Below are positions 4,348 to 61,202 of a DNA stretch of 64,000 nt, piece after piece (positions within the stretch are counted from its first letter, which is position 1; each line of letters begins with the position of its first letter). Origin of the DNA: Chloroherpetonaceae bacterium (GTDB lineage Bacteria; Bacteroidota; Chlorobiia; Chlorobiales; Chloroherpetonaceae); NCBI GenBank assembly GCA_028277445.1, contig JANQGG010000023.1, forward strand, positions 1 through 64,000. Reading direction: 5' to 3'. The position numbers were made by a program, and so were the translations under genes. The notes below the pieces were generated by a model. It saw nothing but the letters and a program-made list of their open reading frames with translations, ran no database searches and was not told the DNA's origin.

Positions 4348-5418
4348 TTAGAGTTTTACAGTTAAAGCCAGAGAATTGATCCCGGCGTTGGAGTGATTTT
4401 CAAAGATATAGGCATAATCAAAGCTGAAATCCAGATTTTGAAATGGCGCCATGAATGAAAATCCCAAAGCAGGCTTGGCGATTTCAGTGAATGCCCAACC
4501 ACTTAGGCCAAGCTGATCCACACCCAATTGCATGGAAAAGTATGAAACGGGTTGTAAAAGCAAGCCCATGCGCAGGAAGGTTTGCGATTGCTCCAAATCA
4601 ACGGTTTCAATAGATGTTACCGGAAATCCATCGATAATTCTGGTAATGGATCTGCGCCCTTCAACCGTTGCGGTTTGGTGGCTCAATTCACCGACAACCT
4701 GAAGCGCGTTGAGCGATAAGATATTGTTATGGAAATACGAGACGCCGAAATTATAACTCACCGGAAGCTTATCGGTTGAAGTGCTTCCCTCTTCATTGTA
4801 GATCGGGGTGGTATCCCATTCGTACTTTGATCGGATGTCCTTGATGATAATTGCAAAAGAGAGGCGACGCTCTTCTTCTAACGTGAATGTTTTTAACACG
4901 CCCAGATCAAATCCAACGCTGAACGAGGAGGAAATCTCCTTAAACAAACCGGCATGATAGGCCCGTAACGAAAGGCCGGCGGCAAATGATTCCCCAAACG
5001 TTTTGGCAAACGACACAAGAAATAAATTTTCCGAAGTTGAATACATTTCGGTGGAATTGCCATCGGAATCGCGCCCATCAATGTTATCTACGCCGGCATG
5101 AATCCAGGAAAAGCCAAGACCAGCATCCGGGCCAATCGGGCCTTGCATAAAAAGGGTGTTGTAGGAGCGATCCAAAGACAGGGATGAAAAGGAAATTCCG
5201 CCTTGATATGAATCGCTGAACGCTAATAGCGCCGGATTATGATAAGCATGAAGGGTATGGCGGTGAATGCTGGCGCTGGTTGCATTTCCCATAGCGATGC
5301 TTTTTGGGGATACGCCTAACCTGGAATAAGCGCCGGGCAATCCTGAAATTTGCCCGAAGAGAGCGTTGGTTTTAAAAATGATGATTAAAAAGAAAACCGA
5401 AAAACACGTTTTTTTCAC
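4348..5418 (-). CDS. PorV/PorQ-family outer-membrane beta-barrel protein
   Basis: The GTG at 5418 gives a clean signal peptide, MKKTCFSVFFLIIIFKTNALFGQ, so I prefer it to a TTG 30 bases upstream (no ATG is available). The mature protein (about 335 residues) opens with LPGAYSRLGVSPKSIAMGNA and HAYHNPALLAF. This is the 'GA..RMG....MGNA...YYNPA.L' signature of PorV/PorQ (UPF0164-type) barrels of Bacteroidota and Chlorobiota. Alternating beta-strands with aromatic girdles follow, ending in a strand that finishes LALTVKL. PorV shuttles type IX cargo; whether this paralogue does so is inference, although a T9SS-tagged protein is encoded at 22831-24834. Confidence 0.8.
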   Translation of the reverse strand: MKKTCFSVFFLIIIFKTNALFGQISGLPGAYSRLGVSPKSIAMGNATSASIHRHTLHAYHNPALLAFSDSYQGGISFSSLSLDRSYNTLFMQGPIGPDAGLGFSWIHAGVDNIDGRDSDGNSTEMYSTSENLFLVSFAKTFGESFAAGLSLRAYHAGLFKEISSSFSVGFDLGVLKTFTLEEERRLSFAIIIKDIRSKYEWDTTPIYNEEGSTSTDKLPVSYNFGVSYFHNNILSLNALQVVGELSHQTATVEGRRSITRIIDGFPVTSIETVDLEQSQTFLRMGLLLQPVSYFSMQLGVDQLGLSGWAFTEIAKPALGFSFMAPFQNLDFSFDYAYIFENHSNAGINSLALTVKL

Positions 5419-6653: not shown

Positions 6654-6812
6654 TGATGCAATCCGGATAAAATTGTTTATGCTAAAACGCGATAATTGTT
6701 GTAAAGACTTAGGTTTATATGCGTATTTTGCAGATATTTTTGTTTTATTTACCTTTTTACAAATAAACGATTTCAAGCTCGTTTTAAAAATTAATCCGAC
6801 ATAAAGCCTCAT

Positions 6813-8111
6813 ATGAGCTTAGATATTTTTGCGAAAGCATTAGCCCCCGTGCTAGGTTATGAAAAGTCAAAAGTTGATCAATACATTCATAAACTTCTTG
6901 AACTTGCAATTGAAGCCCTGCTTATACAAGGCGAAGTAAAGTTTGCCGGCATTGGTTTATTAAAGCGTAAGTATCACCCTGCCGAGCCTCGCGAAAAAGA
7001 GCCGGGGCAGCTTTACTTATATCCGCCTTCACAAACCGTAGAGCTTAGTGTAGACAAACAGTTTGATTCGGGAGATTTTGTTTATGAAACGGCCATTAGC
7101 CAGTTTCAAATGAGCGAAGAAAATGCATTAAGATTTTCCAAGGGATTTGCGGTATCCATTGAAAAAAGCATTGCGGTTCGTGGCAAGTTGGATTTGGGCG
7201 TTTTGGGCACGTTTGAAAAACAAGATGAAGCCATAATATTTAAGGCCTCGCCTCAGTTGGAAGATTTGCTTAAAAAGCCTTATGACCATCTTGAGCCGAC
7301 CAAATTGAATCAAAGTATGGTTTCGGAAGAAAAATCCGAACCTACCGAGCAACCCGAATTACAGCAGCCGACGATAACAGAGAGTGAGCCGCAGACTCCG
7401 CAGCCAGATGTGGAAAAACCTTCGGAAACCACGCAAACACAAGCCACACCGCCTCCAATTGAAACGCCACCTTCAGAGCCTGTTTCATCAAAAGAAGAAG
7501 ATGAGCCGGACTTAAGTTGGTTGTACGAGGATGATTCACAAAAAAATAAAACCTTGTACTACATCATCGGAGGCGTGGCTTTAGTGATTGTGCTTCTTGG
7601 TGGCGGGTATTTGTTTTTAGCAAGTGGGGATAGCGAGAAAAAAACGGTTGCGGAAAAGGTTGAGAAATCCAAGGTTGATTCCGATACAACATCAAAAATA
7701 GATCAGGCTAAAGAAGTCATCGAGGAAAATATACCGGATAAACCTACACCTAAACCTGCCAGATCAAAACCATCTCCTAAAAAAGCGCCAACTAAGGCAA
7801 GAGTATCATCAAAACCTCCTGAAGGCGCGCCATGGTTTGTACCGCCATCATTAACCAAAAAGCTTGATTTATCAAAACGCGGGTATGCAATTTCGGTAGC
7901 TTCATTTCCTGAACGTGTGAAAGCTGAAAACCTGGCTAGTTCGTATTCCCAAAAAGGATTTGCCGTAACCGTGTGGGAAGTTGAAATTAAAGGCAACATG
8001 TATTTCCGCGTGTTAATTGGCAGTTTTAATTCGCGTTCCAAAGCGTTAAAAGCCAAAAAAGATGCCGGAAACGCTCTTCCAAAAGATGCATTTATTGTAA
8101 AAGTTAATTAA
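6813..8111 (+). CDS. HU-like domain / transmembrane / SPOR protein
   Basis: The 432-residue protein has four parts. Residues 1-155 form two tandem HU/IHF-like modules (the CCDC81-type HU domains of Bacteroidota: FAGIGLLKRKYHPAE, then GKLDLGVLGTFEKQ). Residues 160-240 are a Pro/Glu-rich linker. One transmembrane helix lies at about 249-271 (LYYIIGGVALVIVLLGGGYLFL). After a Lys/Pro linker comes a C-terminal SPOR domain (about 355-432, GYAISVASFPERVKAENLASSYSQKG.AVTVWEVEIKGNMYFRVLIGSF). SPOR domains bind denuded glycans at the division septum. The N-terminus should face the cytoplasm, so it may link nucleoid or other cytoplasmic partners to the septum; this is inference. Whether the HU-like modules bind DNA is unknown. 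Confidence 0.82.
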   Translation: MSLDIFAKALAPVLGYEKSKVDQYIHKLLELAIEALLIQGEVKFAGIGLLKRKYHPAEPREKEPGQLYLYPPSQTVELSVDKQFDSGDFVYETAISQFQMSEENALRFSKGFAVSIEKSIAVRGKLDLGVLGTFEKQDEAIIFKASPQLEDLLKKPYDHLEPTKLNQSMVSEEKSEPTEQPELQQPTITESEPQTPQPDVEKPSETTQTQATPPPIETPPSEPVSSKEEDEPDLSWLYEDDSQKNKTLYYIIGGVALVIVLLGGGYLFLASGDSEKKTVAEKVEKSKVDSDTTSKIDQAKEVIEENIPDKPTPKPARSKPSPKKAPTKARVSSKPPEGAPWFVPPSLTKKLDLSKRGYAISVASFPERVKAENLASSYSQKGFAVTVWEVEIKGNMYFRVLIGSFNSRSKALKAKKDAGNALPKDAFIVKVN

Positions 8112-57844: not shown

Positions 57845-58963
57845 ATGAATAAAATTGGTCATGCTATTGCCATTGTTTTAATTGCCGGATTGCTTGGCGC
57901 TGCAGATGGCGGTTGTGGCGGGTCTTCTGGAAAAGCAGAATCGTTTGTAGCAAACAGAGATTATAAATCGGCAATTGCGATTTACGAAAAAGAAATTAAA
58001 AATGATTCCCTAAACGCTGAAGCTTATTTTGGTTTGGGAAAGGTTTACTTTGAAATGAAAGATTTTTTAAAAGCCAAGCAAAACTTTGAAAAAACTCTTG
58101 AGCTTAATCCGGAATCTGAGCGTAAAGAGCAAATTGAAGGTTTGATGTTTACGATGTGGGCAATGGCTTATAACGATGGCATTACATACTATAACAAACT
58201 CATTAAAGCCAAGGATAAGGCTCAACGAAATACACTGGCAGATTCAGCGGCTTACTTTTTTAAACAAGGGATTGAGCTTAGAAAAGATACTGTAGCAACA
58301 TTTAACTTACTTGCTAGTGTATATAATGTTCAGAAGAAAACCAGCGATGCAACTAAGATTTTAGAGGAAGCATTACTAAATGCAATTGCTGATGAGCAGA
58401 CGTATGAAATTTTAAGTAAGATTTATCTTTTCTCAGAACCGGTTCAAACAAAAAAGGCCATCGACGTGCTTAAAGAAGGGGTGAATAAATATCCAGAATC
58501 ACCAGTCATGTACCGTCAGTTGGGCCTGGCATATCTATATGATGGCAATACCGAAGAGGCTAAACCAATCATGAAAAAAGCTGTTGAACTAGCTCCGAAA
58601 GATAAATACATGTGGTTTTACTATGGATTGGTCTTTACTGAAAAGAAAACCAAAGAAGGCTACGAACAAGCAGTAGAGAAGTATAACAAAGCATTGGAGC
58701 TTGATCCGAACTTTTCGGATGCCACATACAACTTAGCTATCGCTTATGTGAGATTGGCAGAGATCGATCGAAAAGAGCACAAAAATGATGCTTCATACAC
58801 CGGTTATCGAGAGCTATACGGTAAAGCAGTTGAAGTGTTAAAACCGGCTGCGGAGCGTGATAACAAAAAAGAACAGTGGCACTTACTCGGTAAGATTTAT
58901 GCCGAAACCAATCAAATTGAGCTTTCTAAAGAAGCCTTGGAAAAAGAAGATGCTGCAAACTAG
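57845..58963 (+). CDS. Exported TPR protein
   Basis: The 372-residue protein has a signal-like N-terminus (MNKIGHAIAIVLIAGLLGAADGGCGGSS; the cysteine lacks an ideal lipobox, so lipidation is uncertain). Seven or so tetratricopeptide repeats follow (RDYKSAIAIYEKEIKNDSLNAEAYFGLGKVYFEM, FLKAKQNFEKTLELNPES, VMYRQLGLAYLYDGNTEEAKPIMKKAVELAPKD, EQAVEKYNKALELDPNFSDATYNLAIAYVRLAE). It is a periplasmic or envelope scaffold of unknown partner. Its original terminator (58986-59018) has a second copy beyond the restriction-modification cassette. Confidence 0.85.
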   Translation: MNKIGHAIAIVLIAGLLGAADGGCGGSSGKAESFVANRDYKSAIAIYEKEIKNDSLNAEAYFGLGKVYFEMKDFLKAKQNFEKTLELNPESERKEQIEGLMFTMWAMAYNDGITYYNKLIKAKDKAQRNTLADSAAYFFKQGIELRKDTVATFNLLASVYNVQKKTSDATKILEEALLNAIADEQTYEILSKIYLFSEPVQTKKAIDVLKEGVNKYPESPVMYRQLGLAYLYDGNTEEAKPIMKKAVELAPKDKYMWFYYGLVFTEKKTKEGYEQAVEKYNKALELDPNFSDATYNLAIAYVRLAEIDRKEHKNDASYTGYRELYGKAVEVLKPAAERDNKKEQWHLLGKIYAETNQIELSKEALEKEDAAN

Positions 58964-58985
58964 ATAGAAACTTACAGATATTATC

Positions 58986-59018
58986 AAAGCCTTGCTTATA
59001 AAAATTGGGCAAGGCTTT
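58986..59018. terminator. Terminator hairpin, left copy of a 33-bp direct repeat
   Basis: Stem AAAGCCTTGC / GCAAGGCTTT with loop TTATAAAAATTGG, then T6. It ends the TPR transcript. Exactly the same 33 bp recur at 60879-60911, with the flanking bases different on both sides. Confidence 0.9.
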
Positions 59019-59132
59019 TTTTATTTCCATAACTCCTGAGGCTTTTTGAGTAGTTCATGCAGTGTCCAATTTTTTTGCAGAATGTTGTATATAACATACA
59101 TAACAAAGTATGGAAAGAATAAAAACGGTTTA

Positions 59133-60107
59133 ATGATTAATATGTTTGAAAAGAACTTGCAAATATCAGAATCTTTTAAAGAAGATGAAAGCATCGTTTT
59201 GTATCATGGAAGTTGTTTGGATTTACTCAGCAAAATACCTGACAGAAGCATTCAATTAATTGTAACCTCACCACCTTACAATATTGGAAAAGAGTATGAA
59301 AAAAAGTTAAAACTTGAAAAATATTTGGAACAACAAAAATATGTTATCCAAGAATGTGAAAGAGTTCTTTCAGAAAATGGCAGTATTTGTTGGCAAGTGG
59401 GTAATTATGTAGATAATGGTTCCATTATCCCATTGGATACAGTTTTATACCCTATTTTTAGTAACCTTGGTCTAGTTTTAAGAAATCGAATAATCTGGCA
59501 TTTTGAACATGGATTACACTGTTCGAAAAGATTTTCCGGACGATACGAGTCTGTTATTTGGTTCACTCGTAAAATTAAAAATTATGTATTCAATCTAGAC
59601 CCCGTTAGAATCCCTCAAAAATACCCAGGAAAAAAATATTTTAAGGGTCCAAAAGCAGGGCAGTATTCTTGCAATCCTCTTGGTAAAAATCCAGGAGATG
59701 TCTGGGATATTCCAAATGTTAAAAGTAACCATATTGAAAAAACTAAACATCCTTGTCAGTTTCCGGTAGGCTTAATTGAAAGATTAATTCTTTCTATGAG
59801 TAATGAAGATGATTGGGTGTTCGATCCTTTTGTGGGTACTGGAACATCAATTGTTGCTGCAATTAGAAATGGAAGGCGAGGAGTAGGTGCAGAAATAGAA
59901 AAGAAATATGTTGATATCTCAAGAAGAAGAATACAAGAAGCAGTTTTAGGTACCCTTAAAGTGCGACCAATGAACAAGCCTAAATATGACCCGAATATTT
60001 CTGGAAATAAGTTGACAGAGGCCCCATGGGAGAAAAAAGCACAAGACCAATCAATACAACCAATGCTATTCGAAAATAGAGGAGAGCATAAGAGTGAAAA
60101 TCGTTGA
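59133..60107 (+). CDS. Type II DNA methyltransferase, beta-class, probably N4-cytosine
   Basis: From ATG 59133 (alternatively 59142) the 324-residue protein has motif IV VTSPPYNIGKEY near residue 50 and motif I VFDPFVGTGTSIVAAIRNGRRGVGAEIE after residue 220, the order that defines the beta class. The SPPY form is typical of N4-cytosine enzymes. A cassette partner encoding a BglII-type nuclease overlaps it by 14 bp, so it should protect the same site. It is AT-rich and flanked by the 33-bp repeats, which suggests acquisition. A longer reading to 59046 (TTG) is unlikely. Confidence 0.92.
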   Translation: MINMFEKNLQISESFKEDESIVLYHGSCLDLLSKIPDRSIQLIVTSPPYNIGKEYEKKLKLEKYLEQQKYVIQECERVLSENGSICWQVGNYVDNGSIIPLDTVLYPIFSNLGLVLRNRIIWHFEHGLHCSKRFSGRYESVIWFTRKIKNYVFNLDPVRIPQKYPGKKYFKGPKAGQYSCNPLGKNPGDVWDIPNVKSNHIEKTKHPCQFPVGLIERLILSMSNEDDWVFDPFVGTGTSIVAAIRNGRRGVGAEIEKKYVDISRRRIQEAVLGTLKVRPMNKPKYDPNISGNKLTEAPWEKKAQDQSIQPMLFENRGEHKSENR

Positions 60108-60705
60108 AACATATTCCCATCTTAATGGGCTTGAATTTTTACTTGTTCACAAGCCCAAATTATGGCGAGAAGTTCAGCAGGTTATTTCTAGTATTGACGG
60201 TGAAATATGTAAGACCAAGGTTTCTAAAGAGAAAACAATGAAGGGAAAATTACTTTATAGTCCAATAGATATGAATAAAGCATTCAAAGAAAAATTAGAA
60301 CATTTGCATTGGAATGAAAGCAGAGTTAGTTATTGGGTTACGAAGGATGAAAGATTAATAAGAAAGACTTTGACGATGCCACCAGAAAAGCAAAAAAAGG
60401 AAATCGAAGATACAGGTGGTATCCCCATTTTTAGTTACAATCAGACCGATTTCATTAAAGACAGGGTTGCTATCGAAGTGCAATTTGGAAAATACTCCTT
60501 TGTTGCATATGATCTTTTTGTAAAGCACCTCGCGTTTTTCATTGGTGATAAAATAGATGTAGGAATTGAGATTTTACCGATGAAATCACTCCAATCACAA
60601 ATGAGTTCAGGTGTTGCCTATTATGAAGGTGAACTTTATAATGTCATTAGACAGGGTCGAGGAGTGCCTGCTGTTCCTCTTGTTATAATTGGGATTGAAT
60701 CATAA
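60094..60705 (+). CDS. BglII/BstYI-family type II restriction endonuclease
   Basis: The 203-residue protein starts at GTG 60094 with AGGAG ten bases upstream. Its N-terminus (ETYSHLNGLEFL.HKPKLWREVQQVISSI) and core (FIKDRVAIEVQFGKYSFVAYDLFVKHLAFFIGDKIDVGIEILPMKSLQSQMSSGVAYYEGELYNV) resemble BglII, where the active site is D..EVQ (D84, E93, Q95). Here the aspartate of KDR and IEVQ match. BglII cuts AGATCT and BstYI RGATCY; a GATC-centred target is a reasonable guess but not shown. It overlaps the methyltransferase, giving ordered expression, methylase first. Confidence 0.82.
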   Translation: MKIVETYSHLNGLEFLLVHKPKLWREVQQVISSIDGEICKTKVSKEKTMKGKLLYSPIDMNKAFKEKLEHLHWNESRVSYWVTKDERLIRKTLTMPPEKQKKEIEDTGGIPIFSYNQTDFIKDRVAIEVQFGKYSFVAYDLFVKHLAFFIGDKIDVGIEILPMKSLQSQMSSGVAYYEGELYNVIRQGRGVPAVPLVIIGIES

Positions 60706-60878
60706 GAGAGCAGAATAGATTGATTGTCAGGATGGTTAAAAGCCATCAATTATTTAAAACGTGTTCAAATAAATTCTTCTTTTTTGAATAAAACAACCTG
60801 TTGAAAAGCCAGAAAGCTATAGAAGAGATGCAATTGTTGTCTATGGATATTAAATGTTAAAAGAACAATAAAAGATTT

Positions 60879-60911
60879 AAAGCCTTGCTTATAAAAATTG
60901 GGCAAGGCTTT
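60879..60911. terminator. Terminator hairpin, right copy of a 33-bp direct repeat
   Basis: Identical to 58986-59018 over 33 bp, 1,893 bp away. On the minus strand it lies 21 bp after the rpsO stop, but its U-run is short there. It may be the host terminator that once served both convergent genes before the cassette entered. The 60706-60878 gap shows no gene. Confidence 0.85.
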
Positions 60912-60932: not shown

Positions 60933-61202
60933 TTACTTACGAATACCCAGTTCAGCAATAATTTTTCTGTAACGATCGATATCGATTTTAGTTAAGTATT
61001 TCAATAGGCTTCTGCGTTTTCCAACAAGTTTTAAAAGGCCATAACGACAATGTTTGTCTTTTGGGTTTTCTTTTAAATGCTCCGTAAGCCTTGAAATATG
61101 TTCGGTTAAAATAGCGATTTCAACTTCAGGCAATCCGGTATTCTTAGGCGAGCCACCAAATCGTTGAACTAATTCTGCTTTTTTTTCTTTCGTAATAGCC
61201 AT
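60933..61202 (-). CDS. rpsO: 30S ribosomal protein S15
   Basis: S15 binds 16S rRNA early in 30S assembly. The 89-residue protein begins [44 protein letters not shown] and has the signature [41 protein letters not shown], at the normal length. It is last in the truB-ribF-rpsO cluster, 39 bp after ribF. No recognisable S15 autoregulatory leader is visible in that gap. Confidence 0.98.

Follow-up and report, generated by a model that had tools for sequence, protein, structure and literature searches.

The window (the 64-kb stretch of DNA analyzed here) contains a restriction-modification (RM) cassette, apparently of foreign origin, between a TPR-repeat gene and rpsO. It is probable, at roughly two chances in three, that this cassette was inserted together with a duplication of a host gene end and is one of a recurrent class of such insertions in the host genome. 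A cassette of the BstYI kind would have entered the intergenic region without an accompanying transposase or integrase, and the same single event would have duplicated the local host terminator, placing the additional copy at the cassette's far side. Small addiction modules would recurrently insert in this manner between duplicated ends (coding end, promoter, or terminator) of a neighboring host gene. The neighboring gene or its terminator would thereby be kept whole.

The RM cassette and its origin

The methyltransferase gene (M) lies directly 5' of the endonuclease gene (R) and overlaps it, and the readable related loci share this order. R matched the BstYI structure 1sdo over its full length (E 5.1e-95, aligned residues 1-201) and PADLOC REase_II (E 1.9e-100). 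M contains the motif SPPY and then DPFVGTGTS, and by motif it is probably an N4-cytosine methyltransferase.

The host genome avoids RGATCY. In 2.12 Mb of it, 694 sites were observed vs 1,197 expected (0.58), and this was the most avoided class of the form R-palindrome-Y, the next being at 0.89. All four forms of the site were depleted (0.49 to 0.62). Two relatives lacking the cassette gave ratios of 0.99 and 0.92 (200-kb samples). As those two relatives show no such depletion, the RM system is probably active and has probably been present for a long time; it, or another of the same specificity, has probably long been active in the lineage. GTTAAC, GTATAC, and CCCGGG were also low among palindromic hexamers in the 2.12 Mb and are perhaps traces of other RM systems.

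The cassette is BstYI-like and appears to be a type II RM system, with RGATCY as its likely specificity. The sequence-only reading, made before this analysis, had called it a BglII-like RM cassette. The RM assignment stands. The BglII-like specificity does not, given a weak match of R to BglII (E 2.6e-4) and the avoidance of GGATCC and AGATCC too. The likeness to the BstYI system (R.BstYI, PDB 1sdo) lies in the full-length similarity of the nuclease, the pairing of M with R, and the avoidance of RGATCY throughout the host genome. The differences are that the host lineage is new and that the system is known here from sequence alone.

Judging from its distribution, the cassette is horizontally acquired and foreign to the host lineage. 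Any match to the nuclease was found in only 4 of 61 order-level genomes, including the host, and the sole other genome of the host's family (G001) lacked it. Nuclease relatives with 71 to 86% identity are spread over many phyla, and others are on plasmids and Burkholderia phages. The GC content of positions 59019-60878 was 33.5% vs 40.4% for the window, below that of all 1,860-bp window segments sampled, so the cassette is more AT-rich than its surroundings, as had been claimed. Complete BstYI-like M-R pairs were present beside ligase and terminase genes in Burkholderia phage BcepIL02 (L153) and beside a recombinase gene on plasmid NZ_CP046255.1 (L152). Each is a possible vehicle.

The duplicated terminator and the host site

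The cassette is bracketed by two exact direct copies of a 33-bp sequence, AAAGCCTTGCTTATAAAAATTGGGCAAGGCTTT, 1,893 bp apart (Table 1). Between them are only M and R, and the inserted segment contains no transposase or integrase; the described arrangement of exact terminator-hairpin copies around the two genes was thus confirmed. This is the sole direct repeat of at least 22 bp within 12 kb in a scan of the entire window. The hairpin pattern matched twice genome-wide, also when the loop was left free and up to 2 mismatches were allowed. About 4e-11 exact 33-mers would be expected by chance, and chance origin is ruled out by this expectation and the genome-wide uniqueness. A dispersed REP-like repeat is ruled out by the two copies only. 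An integron attC was rejected because the GTT core is absent (inspected by eye), and an Rfam search for RNA families gave no match.

The 33 bp coincide exactly with one hairpin, which has a 10-bp stem and a 13-nt loop and folds better than 198 of 200 shuffles. Identity between the copies ends at the hairpin edges on both sides. The left copy begins 22 nt past the TPR stop, and the right copy ends 21 nt short of the rpsO stop. The T-rich tail of each copy faces the cassette. The tails differ, the left being CTTTTTTTAT and the right CTTTAT.

Table 1. Features of the window locus (positions in the window) and repeat-bracketed modules elsewhere in the host genome (contig:position)
Feature	Location	Strand	Evidence
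TPR-repeat lipoprotein-like gene, terminator duplicated	57845..58963	+	Pfam TPR families; order orthologues with terminator near stop
Left 33-bp copy, the TPR gene's ancestral intrinsic terminator hairpin, then TTTTATTT	58986..59018	+	
Left cassette spacer, T-rich tail and presumed promoter region	59019..59141	+	
DNA methyltransferase M, N6_N4_Mtase	59142..60107	+	PF01555, E 2.9e-55; PADLOC MTase_II
Restriction endonuclease R, BstYI-like, GTG start overlapping M end	60094..60705	+	PF09195; 1sdo match
Right cassette spacer	60706..60878		
Right 33-bp hairpin copy, now placed as terminator of convergent rpsO	60879..60911		
rpsO (ribosomal protein S15), convergent with TPR	60933..61202	-	PF00312
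BrnT and CopG-type antitoxin	C1:12661		
HigB and HTH partner, at MacB-like 3' end	C15:33927		
ParDE plus Rv0623-type/PIN pair, at ychF 3' end	C20:10867		
Truncated PIN_2 gene, at SDR 5' end	C23:80436		
Phd/PIN, at murI 3' end	C31:12482		
RelE	C36:103223		
Fic, at nadC 3' end	C36:123584		
BrnTA, at leuS promoter and 5' end	C38:31866		
HicAB, at ferredoxin-like 3' end	C40:1775		
Window RM system, one of 14 bracketed modules	C43		
Orphan Unstab_antitox	C43:146861		
VapB/PIN, at hypF-like 3' end	C48:15586		
YoeB/YefM	C48:46137		
Phd, at rny 3' end	C68:121445		
Fifteenth, with weaker repeats: UPF0175 and DUF3368 protein, at 3' end and terminator of CBS-domain gene	C52:116479		

Position identifies the left copy as ancestral, because TPR orthologues in 11 relatives from the order carry a terminator shortly past the stop, with T-rich tails. 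One of the order relatives, G003, has TPR and rpsO convergent around one bidirectional terminator and no cassette. This genome is an outgroup from another family and is the sole source of the pre-insertion site; in G001, TPR and rpsO are far apart. The comparison with an empty site that had been proposed is therefore available at the distance of this outgroup. Together with the scarcity of the nuclease in the order, the single-terminator site supports the claim that a foreign cassette was inserted and that the terminator was duplicated in the process.

Excision of the cassette and one copy had been expected to restore a simple junction. A good TPR terminator is not restored: in the junction rebuilt from the left flank, one hairpin, and the right flank, the TPR hairpin has the tail CTTTATAGG, which is poorer than the T-rich tails of the 11 relatives. 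Either four T residues disappeared from the right copy afterward or the ancestral TPR terminator was weak. Unless such T residues were lost, the poor tail counts against the preferred explanation.

No similarity of the right spacer to rpsO, the TPR 3' end, or other parts of the genome was detected; a persisting TPR 3' end was considered there, and the similarity was not significant. An open reading frame in this spacer ends 18 nt ahead of the right hairpin, which means little because stops are frequent. The age of the insertion is indicated in two ways that conflict. The strong avoidance of RGATCY suggests long residence, and the identity of the copies through the 13-nt loop suggests a recent event or homogenization. 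The empty TPR/rpsO region of G003 (L004:1300-1520) also contains a long near-perfect palindrome, GTAGGGGCAACC...GGTTGCCCCTAC, beside its single terminator. It is probably a dispersed element.

Bracketed modules in the host genome and in related cassettes

We scanned 2.12 Mb of the host genome under one fixed rule (repeat pairs of 30 to 260 bp, at least 75% identity, 400 to 3,000 bp apart, at most 3 copies). It was satisfied by 33 repeat pairs, which were sorted by hand into insertion-like pairs and paralogue artifacts. Insertion-like pairs numbered 23, and about ten were paralogous or repetitive proteins, dispersed repeats, or a second pair at one locus. Addiction or toxin modules were present in 14 of the 23 insertion-like segments: 12 toxin-antitoxin loci, one Fic, and the window RM system (Table 1). 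Module identities are from Pfam, with some matches under its curated cutoff, and host gene names outside the Pfam tables were judged from sequence appearance. A fifteenth module, at the CBS-domain gene, has an exact 29-bp hairpin within repeats of 70% identity overall. With it counted, the host genome contains at least 14 toxin-antitoxin or Fic modules between two-copy repeats besides the RM system.

Many of the bracketing repeats are ends of neighboring host genes, and several include terminators. The closest parallel in form to the window locus is a gltA-like terminator (C48:180526-181338, copies at 180526 and 181307). Its 32-bp hairpin is duplicated with one difference and brackets 0.75 kb containing a 69-amino-acid ORF that matched nothing in Pfam and may be an antitoxin-like gene of an unknown kind. 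Among 120 small ORFs drawn at random from the host, at least about 9 matched toxin-antitoxin-type families. The host genome is thus rich in such families, and the bracketed segments appear richer; the Fisher comparison is only indicative because the control counts ORFs, not segments. A 200-kb sample of G001 contained one RelE-like/HTH pair, named from sequence appearance, between 108-bp repeats of 84% identity.

The comparison was extended to BstYI-like cassettes whose flanks could be used, 71 in all with the window locus. Flanking direct repeats above 50 bits were found at 5 of the 71 and at 0 of 587 geometry-matched control pairs. The repeats of L039 and L083 are dispersed palindromic repeats, those of L104 are partly dispersed, and those of L110, which fall below the 50-bit cut of the control comparison, are also dispersed. 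Dispersed repeats explain these loci (L104 in part), so the 5/71 enrichment is not readable as target duplication. Only L051, from Nitrospirae, is comparable to the window locus among the repeat-flanked relatives. Here the cassette has a full-length ribD on one side and, on the other, a ribD 5' end that is truncated and diverged (4839-4896 and 6765-6822); the two versions are about 79% identical over 58 bp. Cassettes without repeats, which the sequence-only reading had said would speak against it, are common in other species. The repeats therefore belong to the window insertion and not to the cassette.

Insertion of RM systems with long target duplication was reportedly described by Nobusato et al. 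in 2000 and by Furuta et al. in 2010. Such insertions, with duplications of variable length, are reported in the parts used here of PMC3031569 and PMC3874152; the second, the review of Mruk and Kobayashi (2013), gives duplications on the order of 100 bp. This is the closest known process, as had been suggested, and the other bracketed modules of the host genome, at least 14 in number, support it. What the window shares with it is an RM system that has no mobile element linked to it and is flanked by directly repeated stretches of the local host DNA, whose length varies. The window differs in that a single terminator hairpin makes up the whole of its 33-bp copy, vs the order of 100 bp in the review, and in that toxin-antitoxin modules share the anatomy in the host genome; in those parts, the review treats RM systems only (PMC3874152). 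A ParDE-like module located downstream of MaOC1 in Microcystis has a 152-bp direct repeat at each end (PMC7935541). It too is a toxin-antitoxin pair situated just past a host gene, and the repeats on its two sides are identical and include an inverted repeat. It differs in being a single described case, for which the portion of the article used here states no host gene-end origin of the repeat. What is new here is the recurrence of gene-end-bracketed insertion with toxin-antitoxin modules in one genome.

Routes of insertion and alternative explanations

The insertion with duplication could have followed either of two routes. One would be a staggered break with fill-in (a "long target duplication"). 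The other would be a one-sided crossover with the donor's homologous gene end and illegitimate joining at the other side. The data at the window locus fit both alike, and the two cannot be told apart there.

The coding repeats at parallel loci carry more information on donor sequence. A possible though doubtful alternative is homologous or homeologous import. Donor DNA with the cassette adjoining a donor gene end would have recombined with the host through a brief run of identity, here the hairpin; one flank would then retain the host copy, and the opposite flank would be a donor/host hybrid. Across nine coding repeats, differences between the intact gene and the fragment were 27:13:73 over codon positions, a third-position concentration as between functional alleles; the rough expectation for one decaying copy was 28:27:45. 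Because of this bias, several of the "duplicates" may be imported donor gene ends and not true target duplications. The two copies at nadC (0:0:15) and at murI (1:0:7) resemble a pair of functional alleles and suggest that a donor gene end was imported with the module. At SDR (6:6:5) and at rny (1:4:5), the pattern is like that of a copy decaying in place, which speaks against import. Both processes may operate. The comparison is inapplicable to the window repeat, which is non-coding.

At the window and CBS loci the two copies of the hairpin agree throughout loop and stem, at gltA they differ by one change, and the flanks at these loci are diverged or unrelated. This fits import and hints that exchange or copying took place at the hairpin; selection to maintain a working terminator could also explain it. 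Under import, the inner T tail of the left copy would be the donor's own. Import is opposed by the right spacer, which cannot be aligned with the TPR 3' end, and by the absence of the 33-mer from viral contigs and of plasmid matches to a left-spacer query (58964-59141). The differences are also not clearly on the cassette side: 87 were inner and 63 outer (p 0.06), and the one-sided gradient was not taken to demonstrate a crossover.

It is very improbable that the cassette integrated site-specifically, by an integrase acting in trans on the terminator as its attachment site. The exact 33-bp core has dyad symmetry, a recombinase gene lies beside the related plasmid cassette, and the host genome has nine tyrosine-recombinase matches. 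None of the nine is on the window contig, C43. A 13-bp dyad spacing is unsuited to the usual tyrosine-recombinase cores. The repeats at the parallel loci, 32 to 205 bp long, are unrelated in sequence, and a terminator served as flanking repeat at only 1 of the 71 BstYI-like cassettes, the window locus itself. The suggestion that the terminator acts like an attachment site was abandoned on these grounds. Eight stretches with other methyltransferase loci of the host genome had no hairpin repeats. An integrase-dependent genomic island or IME was also rejected, since an integrase gene with a conserved attachment core was not found.

An older local duplication could instead have supplied two terminators, between which the cassette landed later. 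The cassette-side T-rich tails are as expected for separate terminators of convergent genes. This order of events is nonetheless unlikely: loop and stem are identical though the tails differ, the G003 junction has one terminator besides its dispersed-looking palindrome, and the frequent bracketing of addiction modules in the host genome would be left unexplained.

Insertion with gene-end duplication would account for that bracketing, and the bracketed modules of the host point to a common transposase-free way of insertion for selfish modules. More tentatively, toxin-antitoxin and RM modules may share a dedicated or favored route of this kind that duplicates the neighboring host gene end. Terminator hairpins would be one preferred substrate (window, gltA, and CBS loci), insertion would be harmless to the target gene, and Chloroherpeton-like genomes would contain many such events of different ages. 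How toxin-antitoxin and RM modules spread without a transposase of their own is a long-standing question. At least a dozen parallel insertions in the host genome, apparently of different ages, have readable junctions, and these together with strain comparison could separate the fill-in duplication, donor gene-end import, and integrase models. The modules were shown to be able to land near important genes (leuS, ychF, rny, and gltA) without breaking them.
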